Positions 41,418 through 49,807 of a stretch of 64,000 nt of DNA are shown here, in pieces; positions within the stretch are counted from its first letter, which is position 1; each line of letters begins with the position of its first letter. Source of the stretch: Salarchaeum sp. JOR-1 (lineage in GTDB: Archaea > Halobacteriota > Halobacteria > Halobacteriales > Halobacteriaceae); contig NZ_CP042241.1 of assembly GCF_007833275.1 (NCBI RefSeq), forward strand, positions 868,001 through 932,000, in the 5' to 3' direction. A program made the position numbers and the translations under genes. A model generated the notes under the pieces. The model was given only the letters and a program-made list of their open reading frames with translations, made no database searches and was not told the DNA's origin.

Positions 41418-41878
<461 letters not shown>

Positions 41879-41879
<1 letters not shown>

Positions 41880-43567
41880 CACGCGTCACCTCCCTCGATG
41901 TCCTCGCCGCCGTCGGTGGACACCGCTTCCTCCGCGGACTCCATGCGGTCCATCGGTTCGGGGCTGTGACACTGCCGGACGAGCTGTTTCGTCTCCATGT
42001 CCGGTTCCTCCGTCACGAGCGACACGCCGATGGTGACGACGAACACGACGGGAACCGCGATGAGCGCGGAGCCGATGGCGGGCACCCACTGCGCGAGCGT
42101 CGGGGAGATAGTGCTGTCGAGCGACGCCACGTACGCCGGCAGCACCTCGTTGATCATCGGGATTATCCAGATGACGAGGCCCGTGGTCATGCCGGCGAGC
42201 GCGCCCTGACGGTTCGTGTTCTCCCACCACAGACCGAGGAAGAACATCGGGAACAGCACCGCGCCGGCGAGCGAGAACGCGTACGACACGAGCGCCGCGA
42301 TGGGGGCTGCCGGGTTGAGCGCGGCGAGCGTCGTGATGACGCCGAGCGCGACGATGCTCAGGCGGCCGACGAGCACCTGCTGGCGCTGGGTCGCGTCCGG
42401 GTTGATGATGTTCGCGTAGATGTCGTGCGAGATGGCGGACGACCCGGCGATGAACAGGCCGGCGACCGTCGCGATGGCGGCGGCGATACCGCCAGCCGCG
42501 ACGAGACCGACGAACCACTGCGGGAGGTTCGAGAGCTGCGCGGCGAGCACGACGATGACGTCGCCGGCCGCGCTCGTCATCCCGGGGTCGCCGTACACGT
42601 CACCGATCTGGTTCGAGTAGAGGTCGGTGCCGAACGCGGCGAACGCGGGCGAGCTCAGGTAGAGGAGGCAGATGAAGCCGAGCCCCCACACCGTCGACCA
42701 GCGCGCGGTGCGCTCGGAGTCGACCGTGTAGAACCGAACGAGGACGTGCGGGAGGCCGCAGGTTCCGACCACGAGCGAGAACGCGGTCGCGATCCAGAGG
42801 TAGTAGCTCTGGTGGACGAACGGCTCGCTGAACTCGTTGCTCAGCACGCTGAACAGCTGGCCGTACTCGATGTGCGGCAGGACGGTGGAATAGCCGTTCA
42901 CGTAGCCGACGGCGTAGAGACCGGCGAGGAACGCGACGATGAGGATGACGTACTGGACGGCCATGTTCTTCGTCGCACCCATCATGCCGGAGATGCTCAG
43001 GTAGCCGACCGTGATGGCCATCATGAAGACGACCATCGACTGATAGCCGGTGAGGCCGAGGATGCCGAGGTCGCCGAAGATGTAGAGGCCGACGAGAGCC
43101 ATGCCGCGCGCCTGCCCGATGGCGTACACGAACCCGATGAGGAACGTGGTGACGGCGGCGATTGCGCGCGCGGTGTCGGAGTTGTAGCGGTCGCCGACGA
43201 AGTCGGGCGCGGTGTACTTCCCGAACCGCCGCATCTGGGCGGCCATGAAGATGAGGAGGATGAAGTACCCGGTCGACCAGCCGACGACGAACGCGAGTCC
43301 GTAGAACCCGCTGAGTGCGATGAGCGCGGCCATGCCGAGGTAGGACGCGGCGCTCATCCAGTTCGCGCCGATGGCCATGCCGTTCTCGACGTTCCCGATG
43401 GAGCGTCCGGCGACCCACATGCCCTCGGTGTCGGCGACCTTGAACACGAAGCCGATGACGAGGAACAATGCGAGCATCGCCAGCACGAGGATGGCGGGAA
43501 TGAGCTTGAACGAGACGTTCAGTCCCTCGGGGAGCAGGCCGCTCTGCATCGGGAGGAGCAGACTCAT
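41879..43567 (-). CDS. Sodium:solute symporter, ActP-like acetate permease
   Basis: A 562-residue SSS-family transporter with about 13 membrane segments. FWVAGRSIGNVENGMAIGAN-like and MSAASYLGMAALIAL blocks form the sodium site region, and TCGLPHVLVRFYTV is the ActP-type signature. It pairs with the upstream DUF4212 small subunit, a known arrangement (VC_2705-type symporters). Location after acs and DUF4212 in one operon points to acetate or another short monocarboxylate as substrate. The ATG at 43567 overlaps the DUF4212 stop by one base and has a Shine-Dalgarno. Confidence 0.92.
41886..41893 (-). promoter_or_regulatory. Shine-Dalgarno of usp inside actP
   Basis: GGAGGTGA, read on the minus strand within the last actP codons, is 6 bases from the usp ATG. 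The same GGAGGTGACGC-x-TGATG string precedes actP itself. Confidence 0.7.
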
Positions 43568-43953
43568 CAGGCGTCACCTCCGTGGCTGATGCCGTACTTC
43601 TCGTCGAGCGCGTCGCGTCGGCGCGCGTACCAGAACGAGAGGATGAGCGCCCCTGCGGGAGCGCAGACGGCGACGAGGAAGTAGTGCAGCGGGAAGCCGC
43701 CGGGGATGGTCATCGTCATCGTCTCGGGCGCGAGCGCGGTCGCCGTCACCGGGCCGAAGACGAGCACCGCCCAGATGATGAAGCCGGTCCAGATGAGGCG
43801 GAGGTGGTCGCGCATGAACTCCGTGCTCGGATTGAGGAGGTTCACTTCCTCTTGGAGGTAGTTCGTCTCCCGGTGGCGTTGCGCCGCCGTGGCGGTGCCG
43901 CCGTCGGGAGCGGTTCGTTCGTCGTCCGAATCGTGCCTGTCATTTTCTGTCAT
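43567..43953 (-). CDS. DUF4212 symporter small subunit
   Basis: A 128-residue membrane protein with an acidic N-terminus (about 30 residues) and two hydrophobic segments (IWTGFIIWAVLVFGP and FPLHYFLVAVCAPAGALILSF). This is the DUF4212 'sodium/substrate symporter small subunit' that accompanies ActP-like SSS transporters. FWYARRRDALDEKYGI is its C-terminal signature. It precedes actP with a one-base overlap and follows acs after 42 bases. Confidence 0.9.
   Translation of the reverse strand: MTENDRHDSDDERTAPDGGTATAAQRHRETNYLQEEVNLLNPSTEFMRDHLRLIWTGFIIWAVLVFGPVTATALAPETMTMTIPGGFPLHYFLVAVCAPAGALILSFWYARRRDALDEKYGISHGGDA
43574..43581 (-). promoter_or_regulatory. Shine-Dalgarno of actP inside the DUF4212 gene
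   Basis: GGAGGTGA on the minus strand lies 6 bases before the actP ATG at 43567, within the last codons of the DUF4212 gene, supporting coupled translation of the two transporter subunits. Confidence 0.7.
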
Positions 43954-43995: not shown

Positions 43996-45990
43996 TTAGT
44001 TCTCTGCCTGGTCGCGGATCTCTTCGACGATTTCGGGGTTCCGGAGCGTCGAGGTGTCGCCGAGCTCCTCCTCGTTCGCGACGTCCTCCAGGAGGCGACG
44101 CATAATCTTCCCGGAACGCGTCTTCGGGAGCTCGGGCGTGAACACGACGCTCTCGGGCCGCGCGATGGGGCCGATGGCGTCCTCGATGCCCGCGACGATG
44201 TCCTCGCGGAGGTCGTCGTCGCCCTCGTAGCCGTCCTCCGTGATGACGTACGCGTACACGGCTTCGCCCTTGATGTCGTGGTCGCCGCCGACGACGGCGG
44301 CTTCAGCGACGCCCTCGACGCCGACGATGGCGGACTCGATCTCCATCGTCCCCAGCCGGTGGCCGGAGACGTTGATGACGTCGTCGACGCGGCCGAGGAC
44401 GGTGATGTAGCCGTCCTCGTCTATCTTCGCGCCGTCCTCCGGGAAGTACACCCAGTCGTCGGGGTCGTCCGAGTCGGTGTCGGAGTACTCGGCCCAGTAC
44501 TCGTCGATGTAGCGCTCGTCGTTCTTGTAGAGCGTGCGCAACATCCCGGGCCACGGCTTCTGCACCGTGAGGTAGCCCGCGCGGCCGGGCTCGATCTCGT
44601 CGCCGTTCGTGTCGACGATTTCCACGTCGAGACCGGGGAGCGGCGGGCCGGCGCTCCCCGGCTTCATCTGCTTCACGCCGGGGAGCGTGGTTATCATCAT
44701 TCCGCCGGTCTCGGTCTGCCACCACGTGTCGACGATGGGGCAGTTCTCCTTCCCGATGTGCTTGTAGTACCACTTCCACGCGCGGGGGTTGATGGGTTCA
44801 CCCACCGTGCCGAGGAGGCGGAGGCTGGAGAGGTCGTGCTGGTCGGGGAACTCGGAGCCCCACTTCATGAACGACCGAATCGCGGTCGGCGCGGTGTACA
44901 GCTGGGTCGCCTCGTACTCCTCGATGATCTCCCAGAGCCGGTCGCGCTCGGGGTAGTCCGGCGTTCCCTCGTACATCATCGTCGTCGTTCCGAGCGCGAG
45001 CGGGCCGTACACGATGTAGGAGTGGCCGGTGATCCAGCCGATGTCGGCGCTGCAGAAGTAGGTGTCCTCGGGCTTGATGTCGAGGACCGCTTGACTCGTC
45101 CACGCCGCCCACGAGAGGTAGCCGCCCGTGGTGTGTTTCACGCCCTTCGGCTCCCCGGTCGTTCCCGAGGTGTACATCAGGAAGAGCATGTCCTCCGCGT
45201 CGCGCTCGACCGGGTCGACCTCCGCGCCCTCGTTGGCGGCGACCACGTCGTCGTAGTCGCGCTGGGTGTCGGTGAGGTCGTGGCCGAAGCCGTCGTCGCC
45301 GAGGCGGTCGACGACCACCACGTCAGAGACGTCGTGTTCGACGCCGCTCAGTCCCTCGTTCGCCTTGTCGAGGTGGTCGAGCGGGTCGCCGCGGCGGTAG
45401 TAGCCGTCGCACGTCACGAGGTACTCGGAGTCCGCCGCGTTCATCCGGGTGGCGAGCGCGTCGGCGCTGAACCCGGCGAACACGACCGAGTGCGGCGCCC
45501 CGATGCGCGCACACGCCAGCATCGCGATGGGGAGTTCGGGAATCATCGGCATGTAGAGGGTGACGATGTCGCCCTCGCCGACACCCATCTCCCGGAGTCC
45601 GGCCGCGAACTCGTTGACCTCCCGGTGGAGATCCTCGTACGTGTACGTCCGGTTCTCCTCGTCCGTCGGTTCCCCGACCCACTCGATTGCGGCCTCGTCG
45701 CCGCGCTCGTCGAGGTGCCGGTCGAGACAGTTCGCTGAAGCGTTCAGACTGCCGTTCGTGAACCACTCGAAGAATGGCGGGTTCGAGTCGTCCAGCACCT
45801 GGTCGTAGTCGTCGTCCCAGTCGAGGAGGTCGGCGGCCGCCTCCCAGCACTCGGGCCAGTTCTCGTCGAAGTCGTCGTAGATGCCTTCGTCGGAGACGTT
45901 CGCCTGTTCGACGAACGCCTCCGGCGGCTCGAACTCGGCCTGCTCTTCGAGCCGTGCTTCCAGTTCGACATCCGCGTCGTCGCCTGACAT
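43996..45990 (-). CDS. acs: Acetyl-CoA synthetase (Acs1)
   Basis: AMP-forming activation of acetate to acetyl-CoA. The 664-residue protein has intact ANL motifs: A3 YTSGTTGEPKGVKHT, A5 WWQTETGG, A8 NVSGHRLGTMEIESA and the catalytic lysine in KTRSGKIMRR, the usual acetylation site of Acs. TYTYEDLHREVN and HSVVFAGFSADAL are Acs-specific. It leads the operon with DUF4212, ActP, UspA and a small membrane protein. Inverted CGATAAT/ATTATCG repeats flank its TATA region upstream. Confidence 0.96.
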   Translation of the reverse strand: MSGDDADVELEARLEEQAEFEPPEAFVEQANVSDEGIYDDFDENWPECWEAAADLLDWDDDYDQVLDDSNPPFFEWFTNGSLNASANCLDRHLDERGDEAAIEWVGEPTDEENRTYTYEDLHREVNEFAAGLREMGVGEGDIVTLYMPMIPELPIAMLACARIGAPHSVVFAGFSADALATRMNAADSEYLVTCDGYYRRGDPLDHLDKANEGLSGVEHDVSDVVVVDRLGDDGFGHDLTDTQRDYDDVVAANEGAEVDPVERDAEDMLFLMYTSGTTGEPKGVKHTTGGYLSWAAWTSQAVLDIKPEDTYFCSADIGWITGHSYIVYGPLALGTTTMMYEGTPDYPERDRLWEIIEEYEATQLYTAPTAIRSFMKWGSEFPDQHDLSSLRLLGTVGEPINPRAWKWYYKHIGKENCPIVDTWWQTETGGMMITTLPGVKQMKPGSAGPPLPGLDVEIVDTNGDEIEPGRAGYLTVQKPWPGMLRTLYKNDERYIDEYWAEYSDTDSDDPDDWVYFPEDGAKIDEDGYITVLGRVDDVINVSGHRLGTMEIESAIVGVEGVAEAAVVGGDHDIKGEAVYAYVITEDGYEGDDDLREDIVAGIEDAIGPIARPESVVFTPELPKTRSGKIMRRLLEDVANEEELGDTSTLRNPEIVEEIRDQAEN

Positions 45991-46006: not shown

Positions 46007-46043
46007 CGATAATAGGCATAAAAAGCACCCTCGCTAATTATCG
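46007..46043. promoter_or_regulatory. Inverted CGATAAT/ATTATCG repeats at the acs promoter
   Basis: CGATAAT (46007-46013) and ATTATCG (46037-46043) are perfect arms 30 bases apart centre to centre. CTTTTTATG on the minus strand (about 46017-46025) between them is the likely TATA box of the acs operon. Confidence 0.45.
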
Positions 46044-46074
46044 TAATCCCGCCCGCGAAATCGAAGCCGTCATC

Positions 46075-47751
46075 CTACGCGTCGTCGGTGAACGCGGCCG
46101 TCAGCAACTTTTGCTGGGCCTTGCGCAGGTGGTTGTGGAGCGTCGGCGCCGAGACGTCCATCGCGTCCGCCAACTCCTCCGCCGTGCTCCCGCGCGGCCA
46201 CTCGAAGTAGCCGCCGAAGTACGCCGCGCGGAGGGTGGCGCGCTGTTTCTCCGTCAGGTCTTCCTGAATGGTCTGCCGGAGGTCGGTCGTCTGCGGGCGG
46301 CGCTCCGTCTCGCGTTTCGCGCGGAGTTCCACGCCGCCGAAGCGGTCGGTGACGGCCTCTACGACCCCCCGCACGTCCACGGCCTTCGGGAAGACCGCGG
46401 TGAGGTCGCCGTCGCCGTCAGCGATCGAGAGCGCCTCGACCGCGCCCCCGCGATCCACCACGACGCCGGTCGGCGTATCCGCGGAGACGATGCACTCGAG
46501 GTGCGCGCGGTCGCCGTGGTCGCGGATGAGGCGTACGTCCCGCACCCTGTCGTCTCCGTCCGCGTGCGCGAGGATGTCCTCCACGGACGCGCCGCTCGCG
46601 ATGACGAAACACAGGAGGTCGCCGTCCTCCACGGGCACCAACCCCTCCAGGTCGAACGCGCAGTCCAGCTCGCGCGACGCCGTGACGAAGAACGACCCGT
46701 CGGTGACGCCGAAGGAGAGTTCGACGCCGGTGTCCGCGACGAGCAGGCGCTTGCGCTTGACCGCGGCAGTCGTCCAGCCGATCCGTCGGCCCGCGTCCAC
46801 GAGGAACTCCCGCAGCCCCTCGGTCTCACCGTTTTCGGTGACGGCACAGAGGAGGCCGTGGGGCGTCCCGTTCGACCGTATCGCGCTCGCCGCGACCGTC
46901 CCGTCTCGCCCCCAGCGCTCGGCGTCGAGCGCGCGCTCGGCGAACGCGCCCCGCTCGTCCACGCCGTGGCGATCCAGCAGGCCCGTCTCCCGCACGCTCT
47001 CTCGGAGGGTCGCGCTCGCGGTCTCCGCGTCCACGCCCGCGCACTCCTGGAGGTCGCCGTGCTCGTCGCACGTCCAGACCGCGGGGAACGCCGGTGCGAG
47101 CGCCTCACAGGCCGCGCGATCCACCGCGTCCCGTGTCGACACGTCGTCGAGCGCCGCGCCGAGCCGCCGCGACGCACCCGCGAACGGCACCGCGTCCCCT
47201 GCGACCGTCTGTTCGTCGTCGGTCATCGCGGCCGCTATCTCGCGGTCGGTCGGCTGTTCGATGTACGGTTCGAGGCTGTCGAGGCCCGCCCAGCCACCGG
47301 TCGCGCGCACCACTCGGGGGTCGACGCCGTCGTCGAGGTGGCGGCGCGCGAACCCGCCGCGGAGGTCGCGCGCCGCGGCGTCTGCGAGCCGGTCGCCGTC
47401 GGCGTCGTCCGCGGCCCGAGTCGCGACCTCGGAGACGAGCATCTGGAGGCGGCGCGGCGTCACGTCGAACACGCACTCGTCCGCGCCGACGCTGTTCGCG
47501 TTCACGTACCGCTCGAACTCCCGCGACACGTCGGCGGGCACGTACGCGCGCCTGCCGTCGTTCGGCACGCGCAGGAAGGCGTGCGTCCGGCCGTCGAAAG
47601 ACCGTTCGGTCAGGTGACTCGGCTTCACGTCAGCGAGTTCGCCGGAGCGGAGGCCGACGCGCCCGCAGAGCGCGACGACGAGCGCCTCCCGGTACGTTCG
47701 CGCTGCCCGCGCGACGCGCTCGTACTCCGCCACCGTGAGCGCCCTCGACAT
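46075..47751 (-). CDS. Bat-type HTH-10 regulator fused to a tyrosine-recombinase-like domain
   Basis: A 558-residue protein. Residues 1-170 look like a tyrosine recombinase: R35 in GRVGLRSGELADVK, R131 in ARDLRGGFARRHL, and Y163 in EPYIEQ align with the catalytic Arg I, Arg II and Tyr. The box II histidine is R128 and the second position W154, so cleavage activity is doubtful. The middle (about 200-480) is a sensor region like the bacterio-opsin activator (Bat) family. The end is an HTH-10 domain (LTEKQRATLRAAYFGGYFEW, then AEELADAMDVSAPTLHNHL). Lying between two acs genes, it likely controls acetate genes. Confidence 0.88.
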   Translation of the reverse strand: MSRALTVAEYERVARAARTYREALVVALCGRVGLRSGELADVKPSHLTERSFDGRTHAFLRVPNDGRRAYVPADVSREFERYVNANSVGADECVFDVTPRRLQMLVSEVATRAADDADGDRLADAAARDLRGGFARRHLDDGVDPRVVRATGGWAGLDSLEPYIEQPTDREIAAAMTDDEQTVAGDAVPFAGASRRLGAALDDVSTRDAVDRAACEALAPAFPAVWTCDEHGDLQECAGVDAETASATLRESVRETGLLDRHGVDERGAFAERALDAERWGRDGTVAASAIRSNGTPHGLLCAVTENGETEGLREFLVDAGRRIGWTTAAVKRKRLLVADTGVELSFGVTDGSFFVTASRELDCAFDLEGLVPVEDGDLLCFVIASGASVEDILAHADGDDRVRDVRLIRDHGDRAHLECIVSADTPTGVVVDRGGAVEALSIADGDGDLTAVFPKAVDVRGVVEAVTDRFGGVELRAKRETERRPQTTDLRQTIQEDLTEKQRATLRAAYFGGYFEWPRGSTAEELADAMDVSAPTLHNHLRKAQQKLLTAAFTDDA

Positions 47752-47762
47752 ACTGTTTCGGA
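47750..47762 (-). repeat. TCCGAAACAGTAT repeat at the regulator start codon
   Basis: On the minus strand this 13-mer runs into the regulator's ATG. A perfect second copy lies at 47845-47857, and a GTTTCGGA inverted partner at 47871-47878. Confidence 0.55.
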
Positions 47763-47844
47763 AAACCTCGCTCTTGCGAATAAGTGTTGGGGTCTATACA
47801 GCCCATTACTTCGAAACTAGCTCGAAAGCGGTCGGAATTCCGGA

Positions 47845-47863: not shown

Positions 47864-49807
47864 CTACGATTCCGAAACGCCGTCGACGATGGATTCGAGT
47901 TCGCCGACGATTTCGGGGTTCCGGAGCGCGGACGTGTCCTCGATGTCCTCGCCGTTCGTGATGCGTTCGAGGTACCGCCGCATCAGCTTCCCCGAGCGCG
48001 TCTTCGGGAGGTCGGGCGTGAACACGACCACGTCGGGCGCGGCGAACCGACCGATGGCGTCCGCGACCGCTTCCCGAACGCGCTCGCGGAGCGGATCGGT
48101 CGCGCTCACGTTCTTCCGCGGGCTGACGTACGCGTACAGTGACGTGCCAGCCCCGCCCCCGCCACCGACGACGGCGGCCTCGGCGACGCCCTCGACGCCG
48201 ACGATGGCGGACTCCACCTCCGCGGTTCCGAGGCGGCGGCCCGCGACGTTCAAGAGGTCGCCGCGCCGCCCGAGCAACCGGATGTAGCCCGCCTCGTCGA
48301 CCGTCGCCGTGTCGCCCGTATCGTACGTCCAGCCGCCCCGGGTCGCCGCGTCGCGGAGTGAGTCCGCCATCCCCGGCCACGGCCGCGTCACCGCGAGCAT
48401 CCCGGATTCGTCCGGGTCGACGGGGTCGCCGCGCGCGTCCACCACGTCCGCGTCGACGCCCGGAATCGGCGGGCCCGCCGCGCCCGGCCGCATTCCGTCC
48501 ACCCCGGGAAGCGTCGAGAGGAGGATGCCCCCCGTCTCGGTCTGCCACCACGTGTCCACGATGGGGCACTCCCCGTTCCCGATGTGCTCGTAGTACCACC
48601 ACCACGCCGTCTCGTCGATCGGCTCGCCGACCGTGCCGAGGAGGCGGAGGCTGGAGAGGTCGTGCTTCTCCGGGTACTCCGCGCCCCACTTCATGAAGGA
48701 GTGGATGGCGGTCGGCGCGGTGTAGAACACGTCCACGGCGTTGCGCTCCACGATCTCCCAGATGCGGTTGCGCTCGGGGTGGTCGGGCGCGCCCTCGTAC
48801 ATCACGGTGGTCGCGCCGAGCGCGAGCGGGCCGTACACGATGTAGGAGTGGCCGGTGATCCAGCCCACGTCCGCGCTGCACCAGTGGGTGTCCTCGTGGG
48901 AGAGGTCGAGAACGGTCTCGCTCGTCCACGCGACGTGCGCGAGGTAGCCCCCGGTGGCGTGGCGGACCGCCGTCGGCTCCCCGGTCGTGCCCGACGTGTG
49001 GATGACGAACAGCGCGTCGTCGGCGTCCCGCGGCACTGGGTCGACCTCCGCGCCCGCGTGGTCGGCCACGAGGCTGTCGTAGGCGTGGTCGCCGTCGAGC
49101 GCGCGGCCGTCCCCGAGTCGGTCGACGACGACCTGCTGAACGGACTGCTCCACCGCGAGCGCGGCGTTGTCCGCCTTGCTCTTCAGGTCGTACGCGGTGC
49201 CGCGGCGGTAGTAGCCGTCGCACGTCACCAGCAGGGTGGAGCCGGTCTGTTCGAGGCGGGTCGCCAGCGCGTCCTTCGAGAACCCCGCGAACACCACGGA
49301 GTGTACGGCGCCGATGCGCGCGCAGGCGAGCATCGCGATGGGGAGTTCGGGAACCATCGGGAGGTAGAGCGTCACCACGTCGTCCTCGGCGACGCCGAGG
49401 TCGCGGAGCGCGGCCGCGAACGCGTTCACCTCGCGGTGGAGGTCTTGGTACGTGTACGTCCGCGTCTCCCCGCGCTTTCCCTCCCACTTGATGGCGGCGC
49501 GGTTCTTCCGCCCCGCCTCGACGTGGCGGTCCACGCAGTTCGCCGCGGCGTTCAACCGCCCGCCCGCGAACCAGGTCGCGCGCTCGCCGTCGCGGTCTAA
49601 CACCTCGTCGTAGTCGTCTATCCAGTCGAGGCTGTCGCCCGCGGCCGCCCAACACTCGGGCCAGTTCGCGTCGTACTCGTCGCGCAGCGGGGCCGTGACG
49701 TTCGCGTCCGCCGCGAACGCTTCGGGTGGCGCTACGTCCGCCGGGCGCTCACGCCCGGGTCGTCCATCGTCCATCGTCTCACGTACGGCTTCGGGGCGCG
49801 CGCCCAT
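47864..49807 (-). CDS. Second acetyl-CoA synthetase-like enzyme (Acs2), motif-divergent
   Basis: A 647-residue ANL ligase that aligns with Acs along its length (TYTYQDLHREVN, HSVVFAGFSKDAL, WWQTETGG) and keeps the catalytic lysine in KTRSGKLMRR. Key motifs are altered: A3 reads HTSGTTGEPTAVRHA, with Thr-Ala in place of Lys-Gly, and A8 reads RRGDLLNVAGRRLG rather than RVDDVINVSGHRLG. It may have a different substrate or slower kinetics. Start: ATG 49807, or ATG 49774 (MDDGRPGRER), which is equally plausible. It is upstream of the Bat-like gene on the same strand. Confidence 0.88.
   Translation of the reverse strand: MGARPEAVRETMDDGRPGRERPADVAPPEAFAADANVTAPLRDEYDANWPECWAAAGDSLDWIDDYDEVLDRDGERATWFAGGRLNAAANCVDRHVEAGRKNRAAIKWEGKRGETRTYTYQDLHREVNAFAAALRDLGVAEDDVVTLYLPMVPELPIAMLACARIGAVHSVVFAGFSKDALATRLEQTGSTLLVTCDGYYRRGTAYDLKSKADNAALAVEQSVQQVVVDRLGDGRALDGDHAYDSLVADHAGAEVDPVPRDADDALFVIHTSGTTGEPTAVRHATGGYLAHVAWTSETVLDLSHEDTHWCSADVGWITGHSYIVYGPLALGATTVMYEGAPDHPERNRIWEIVERNAVDVFYTAPTAIHSFMKWGAEYPEKHDLSSLRLLGTVGEPIDETAWWWYYEHIGNGECPIVDTWWQTETGGILLSTLPGVDGMRPGAAGPPIPGVDADVVDARGDPVDPDESGMLAVTRPWPGMADSLRDAATRGGWTYDTGDTATVDEAGYIRLLGRRGDLLNVAGRRLGTAEVESAIVGVEGVAEAAVVGGGGGAGTSLYAYVSPRKNVSATDPLRERVREAVADAIGRFAAPDVVVFTPDLPKTRSGKLMRRYLERITNGEDIEDTSALRNPEIVGELESIVDGVSES

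Follow-up and report, generated by a model that had tools for sequence, protein, structure and literature searches.

A tyrosine-recombinase domain fused to a Bat-type regulator: a candidate regulator of acetate uptake and activation in haloarchaea

Between two acetyl-CoA synthetase genes of Salarchaeum sp. JOR-1 lies a gene whose product joins a degenerate tyrosine-recombinase catalytic domain to a Bat-type regulator. The best overall explanation is that this fusion protein is a haloarchaeal regulator of acetate uptake and activation, and we give this reading as a whole a probability of about 0.5. The window, a 64,000-nucleotide stretch of contig NZ_CP042241.1 (positions 868,001 to 932,000), was analyzed together with related loci. 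In it, acsB, the regulator gene, acsA and the genes for a DUF4212 protein, an SSF symporter and a Usp protein form an array on one common strand (Table 1). As an earlier note on this DNA had proposed, the regulator is indeed flanked by acs genes: acsA and acsB both encode AMP-forming acetyl-CoA synthetases with PF00501, PF13193 and PF16177 (Pfam).

Table 1. Features of the regulator locus, with positions in the window
Feature	Position	Strand	Basis
Regulator gene, 558 aa, ATG start	46075..47751	-	ORF, Pfam, orthologs
Degenerate tyrosine-recombinase catalytic domain, residues 5-178, without core-binding domain	47218..47739	-	PF00589, XerA profile, fold
Middle region, residues 190-339, putative sensor, least conserved	46735..47184	-	GAF-like in relatives; identity
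BAT domain, residues 340-490	46282..46734	-	PF15915 4.8e-39
HTH_10 DNA-binding domain, residues 499-550	46102..46257	-	PF04967 1.9e-20
acsA promoter upstream element, conserved, TTACGATAATTAG	46034..46046	-	PWM site 46021-46046
acsA TATA-like CTTTTTAT, 8 bp past the upstream element	46018..46025	-	Sequence and motif alignment
Distal dyad GTTTCG-N17-CGAAAC, overlapping the acsB stop codon	47850..47878	-	Dyad search
Proximal dyad ATTCG-N16-CGAAA, past the TATA-like sequence and before the regulator ATG	47756..47781	-	Dyad search
acsB, acetyl-CoA synthetase, upstream of regulator	47864..49807	-	Pfam
acsA, acetyl-CoA synthetase, downstream of regulator; predicted target promoter	43996..45990	-	Pfam
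DUF4212 protein, symporter small subunit	43567..43953	-	PF13937 4.8e-22
actP-like sodium:solute symporter	41879..43567	-	PF00474 2.3e-52
Universal stress protein (Usp), last gene of the array	41418..41882	-	PF00582 2.8e-39

From N- to C-terminus, the regulator consists of a tyrosine-recombinase catalytic domain (N-domain), a weakly conserved middle region, a BAT domain and an HTH_10 domain. In the window protein, BAT (134.1 bits, 5e-39) and HTH_10 (72.9 bits, 2e-20) both score above the curated Pfam cut-offs, in agreement with the fusion to a Bat-type activator suggested before. An N-terminal REC or PAS domain as in Bat was not found by Pfam in the window protein. A core-binding domain is absent as well: in sequence and AlphaFold model the catalytic domain stands at the very N-terminus. 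The middle region of one relative (L010) matched GAF_3 (3.9e-6, Pfam), and in two longer orthologs of 740-840 aa (L060, L095) an inserted PAS domain separates the recombinase domain from the GAF/BAT part.

Taken alone, the window protein displays a weak likeness to recombinases that is nevertheless above chance. It matched PF00589 at E=8e-4 over residues 5-165 (19.7 bits, sub-threshold at a gathering score of 27.1), an integrase family in PHROGs (PHROG_216, 6e-8) and XerA in the PDB (4a8e, 1.7e-5). Its recombinase identity is secure because of an alignment of 84 N-domains, comprising 83 regulators and one stand-alone recombinase (L093): 80 of the 84 sequences matched PF00589 (best 3e-12), and a PDB search with the profile retrieved XerA 4a8e at 9e-17 and 5hxy at 1.4e-9, XerD being weaker. 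Further support is provided by structure prediction. An AlphaFold model of residues 1-184, computed from an alignment of four sequences, reached a pLDDT of 70.6 and a pTM of 0.70, with low confidence at 152-165. In a Foldseek search with this model, ranks 1-48 were taken by tyrosine recombinases and the recombinase-fold repressor MrpR (rank 42); Cre and XerA came out on top, and lambda Int, XerH, IntI4 and Flp were matched as well. The full-length model was poor (pLDDT 49.5) and served for fold search only. Profile search and fold match rule out a chance resemblance to integrases, and the N-domain almost certainly has the tyrosine-recombinase fold. The recombinase-like character read earlier from residues 1-170 is thus borne out by profile and predicted structure alike. 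A recombinase-profile match (6e-6) was also obtained with PDB chain 9i5v_14, 401 aa, which is named ribosome-associated inhibitor RaiA, perhaps through mislabelling.

The closest relatives of the N-domain are stand-alone haloarchaeal recombinases of 200-240 aa, which likewise have no core-binding domain and in which R, K (in a GKDTT hairpin), H, R, W and Y are intact. In a quick tree, built without columns 128 and 163 and with long branches among the outgroups, the 83 regulators form one clade (SH-aLRT 99) adjoining stand-alone proteins (support 84). Because of this placement, the tree fits a derivation of the N-domain from a single recruitment of a catalytically intact haloarchaeal recombinase of ~200 aa. 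Among 293 genomes of the order, 194 gave an N-domain match at E<=1e-20, although a few of these may hold the stand-alone form; a single-genome oddity is thereby ruled out. A viral origin was rejected, as scans of viral contigs yielded no relative. A family of minimal, catalytic-domain-only recombinases of about 200 aa with intact catalytic residues was recorded at L093:6831-7430, L136-L142 and L177-L226; many of its members have an inverted repeat ahead of the gene (see below). The Salarchaeum genome itself encodes a more distant 226-aa relative (L151, G000:C2:1834451-1834942) with an HxxR box and GGW, in which His is aligned at the position of the nucleophilic Tyr and a Tyr follows one residue later; relatives of this protein occur in many haloarchaeal genomes.

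The residues named by the earlier note were all found where it had placed them: the window protein has R35, R131, W154 and Y163, and at the box II His position it has Arg (R128). Among the 83 regulators, Arg I is kept in 73, Arg II in all and Trp in 77. The box II His remains in four only (Arg in 52, Ser in 13), and these four belong to one small clade and all lack the hairpin Lys, which is lost in 82/83 and present in a single regulator. The nucleophilic Tyr is retained in 54 and lost in 29 (Phe 10, Leu 9, others 10), with at least 13 changes of Tyr state on the tree, and the regulator of Hfx. gibbonsii has neither Arg I nor Tyr. The catalytic set R, K, H/K, R, H/W, Y that an enzyme needs is therefore incomplete in the regulators. 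At the same time all regulators share E38, R67, R100, R101 and M104, and 82/83 have Q103; R100/R101 mark what we take to be the start of the helix that bears base-contacting residues in XerD. Mean pairwise identity is 48% in the N-domain, 34% in the middle region, 40% in BAT and 70% in HTH_10. Because the N-domain is better conserved than the middle region and BAT while its catalytic residues are lost, it appears to be under constraint with the chemistry gone. We are highly confident that catalysis was lost, and the degenerate domain probably still binds DNA. One clade among stand-alone enzymes, lost residues and this conservation together uphold the view that a recombinase fold was turned into part of a regulator.

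An acs gene adjoins the regulator in all 96 loci sampled (82 plus 14 more distant), and the order is nearly always acsB-regulator-acsA-DUF4212-actP. This order is broken at contig ends, in L056 and L167, where acsA is missing, and in L166, where the stretch has no acsB. Similarity to the N-domain guided the choice of loci, and the 14 distant ones show the same synteny. Copies on Hfx. gibbonsii pHG2 and in Haladaptatus salinisoli are annotated merely as 'bacterio-opsin activator domain-containing protein'. At one locus (L101; G146:C1, 8962-9561) the regulator frame is cut to 199 aa, with acs genes intact and the acsA element and dyads present; this is possibly a broken copy. In Hfx. volcanii, the genes are acs8 (HVO_A0158), acs7 (HVO_A0156), HVO_A0155, ssf/actP (HVO_A0154) and uspA28 (PMC7746861). 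There, the acs7-HVO_A0155-ssf-uspA transcript was present on acetate and absent on glucose and casamino acids, and the actP-like symporter is an acetate transporter (PMC7746861). acs7 and acs8, 64% identical, are the acs pair of this locus, and HVO_A0157 is expected from the gene numbering to be the regulator ortholog. No paper naming HVO_A0157 was found among the open-access papers searched, and no named regulator of acetate induction in the haloarchaeal acetate papers among them.

A conserved predicted operator, TTnnnATAnTTAG, is located beside the acsA TATA box. About 72 of the 75 loci have the motif TT(T/G)GnATAnTTAG between regulator and acsA. It precedes a TATA-like TTTA/CTTAT by 8 bp and the acsA ATG by 54-56 bp, and its information content is 26.5 bits compared to at most 8.8 in shuffles. 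When 80 loci (2.7 Mb of strand) were scanned, 65 of 65 strong matches were upstream of acsA, including two that had been scored as 'elsewhere'. The motif was the top match in 16/16 held-out loci, and the sole PWM match in the window is the acsA promoter site. A clear acsA element was not found in a few divergent regulator loci (L073, L085). A second exact copy in the Salarchaeum genome (L174, G000:C2:414-426) lies near a contig start with no clear gene beside it. The variant TTTGnACAnCTAGA marks one regulator clade, in which the HTH_10 region ends in HLRKGQHELL and not HLRKAQQKLL. This co-change, essentially one evolutionary split, hints that HTH_10 reads the acsA element. Very probably, the regulator controls the acsA operon. 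The link to acetate use made earlier stands, with acs-actP synteny, an acsA-specific promoter element and a homologous operon expressed on acetate only (PMC7746861).

The second predicted operator is a pair of ~28-bp dyads with the pattern TTTCG-N16-CGAAA, in front of the regulator gene itself. Of 83 loci, 80 have TTCG-N15/16-CGAA there, against a mean of 0.35 and a maximum of 3 in shuffles, and the mirror control GCTT/AAGC was nearly nil. A scan of 1.34 Mb for the strict form TTTCG-N15/16-CGAAA gave 93 copies, and 80 of these are no more than 400 bp upstream of the regulator. Exactly two dyads are present in 62/83 loci. The distal one, at about -125, often overlaps the acsB stop codon; the proximal one, at about -30, separates the TATA box from the ATG. 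A dyad was also present in 15 of 16 held-out loci, almost always with a copy at -27 to -30. The window's own locus has no exact TTTCG-N16-CGAAA because its two copies have N17 and ATTCG, respectively. Centre-to-centre distances show two peaks, 95-98 and 106-109, and one clade has 77; among these related loci, helical phasing of the spacing is weakly supported. The outer arms are conserved and the interior, where a recombinase would cut, is not. The earlier note had imagined one operator bound by two modules, an expectation that finds no support here, as two promoters of the locus each carry a conserved operator of a different kind.

These observations suggest the following model. A minimal, catalytic-domain-only tyrosine recombinase would have been fused to a Bat-type sensor/HTH_10 regulator, and its chemistry lost afterwards. 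The C-terminal HTH_10 domain would bind TTnnnATAnTTAG and activate acsA-DUF4212-actP(-usp), and the recombinase-fold domain would sit as a dimer on a dif-like dyad. Both dyads before the regulator's own gene, about 96 bp apart in most loci, would be occupied, and through the downstream one the regulator would repress or tune its own synthesis. The two dyads may be paired, as recombinases do in synapsis. Looping between them is doubtful, and we put forward only tentatively that a tetramer bridges both dyads and loops its own promoter shut while HTH_10 activates the acetate operon at the separate element. The distal dyad could be the descendant of an ancestral recombination site brought with the gene.

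The regulator protein is likely to bind the dyads, and the domain responsible can be approached through the stand-alone recombinases, which have no HTH_10. Several of them carry an inverted repeat of 25-27 bp about 110 bp before their own start, of the form TTGACGACTT-N7-AAGTCGTCAA in one subgroup and TTTCGTAGTT-N7-AACTACGACA in another. The nearest one, L093, has a perfect TTCGTAGTTAT-CCG-ATAACTACGAA with outer arms TTCG/CGAA that resemble those of the regulator dyads. The repeats also resemble the regulator dyads in geometry, with CG pairs 15-17 bp apart, and are probably the core sites of these recombinases. At many stand-alone loci, no dyad was better than in shuffled sequence. Because proteins without HTH_10 carry similar dyads, we lean towards the recombinase domain as the dyad reader. 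HTH_10 might instead make all DNA contacts, at the acsA element and at the CGAA half-sites, with the recombinase domain serving only to contact other proteins or as a scaffold for dimers or tetramers. Well-known Bat-type activators do work without a recombinase domain, and CGAAYATDKTYG, a CGAA-type motif, occurs at denitrification promoters with suspected Bat-type activators (PMC11218638), so HTH_10 could read the dyads. We consider this unlikely given the like-geometry dyads of the stand-alone proteins, the clade in which the acsA element has changed along with the end of HTH_10 while the dyad arms stay fixed, and the invariance of the putative DNA-contacting residues of the N-domain.

The signal of the proposed acetate regulator would be acetate-related. 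A regulator of the acs locus that instead responds to redox, oxygen or energy state is comparably unlikely. GAF and PAS domains of some members would suit such a role, and Bat-family regulators have been described as responsive to oxygen, light or redox (PMC11218638); however, the homologous Hfx. volcanii operon is acetate-specific (PMC7746861), and Pfam recognised no redox motif in the middle region of the window protein. Motif discovery does not tell which protein binds, and another regulator might occupy the conserved elements while the window protein, with a different job, merely shares the neighbourhood. This is improbable, as the elements are almost confined to the acs-regulator locus, the regulator gene is present at every sampled locus and regulators usually act on adjacent genes. 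An N-domain that still inverts or integrates DNA at the dyads, as the four conserved residues of the window protein and the paired dyads of core-site size might suggest, was rejected on the residue counts of the 83 regulators and on the unconserved dyad interior, the expected cleavage region.

The architecture is already on record. Family fam30-04 comprises large haloarchaeal proteins of Phage_integrase-BAT-HTH_10 composition, some with GAF (Badel et al. 2021, PMC8371274), and the window protein has the same domain order with all three domains. In the passages on it found in that review, the family is classed among recombinases, and gene neighbourhood, catalytic loss, operators and a regulatory role are not given (PMC8371274). 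The role, degeneration and operators of the regulator are apparently undescribed, although literature beyond open access could hold more. The best functional precedent is MrpR, the master repressor of prophage SPbeta, which has a recombinase fold and has lost most catalytic residues (PDB 8A0A, PMC10516654). The window regulator shares fold and catalytic loss and would likewise act by binding DNA without recombination, a role that its residue loss and the conserved dyads would fit; MrpR, in contrast, keeps a core-binding domain, has no BAT or HTH_10 and controls a bacterial prophage. With Bat, NarO and DmsR the regulator shares HTH_10, and BAT with many of them, and the acsA element lies just upstream of the TATA box, as expected of an activator site. 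It differs from them in an N-terminal recombinase domain in place of REC/PAS (PMC5847659) and in a second operator type. XerA and Cre are alike in catalytic-domain fold and in an inverted-repeat site of about 28 bp; unlike them, the regulator has no core-binding domain, has lost hairpin Lys and box II His, and its Tyr is dispensable.

The MrpR authors suggested that tyrosine recombinases recruited as transcription factors may be commoner than anticipated (PMC10516654). To this, the present locus adds an acetate setting, two predicted operators and the fusion of a recombinase to a sensor and a second DNA-binding domain. It offers a well-documented case of a recombinase catalytic domain reused as the predicted DNA-binding part of a cellular transcription factor, and extant relatives that kept their catalytic residues, together with the apparent core sites of these proteins, allow a direct comparison. 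For haloarchaea, it provides a named candidate regulator and predicted operators for acetate-specific induction.
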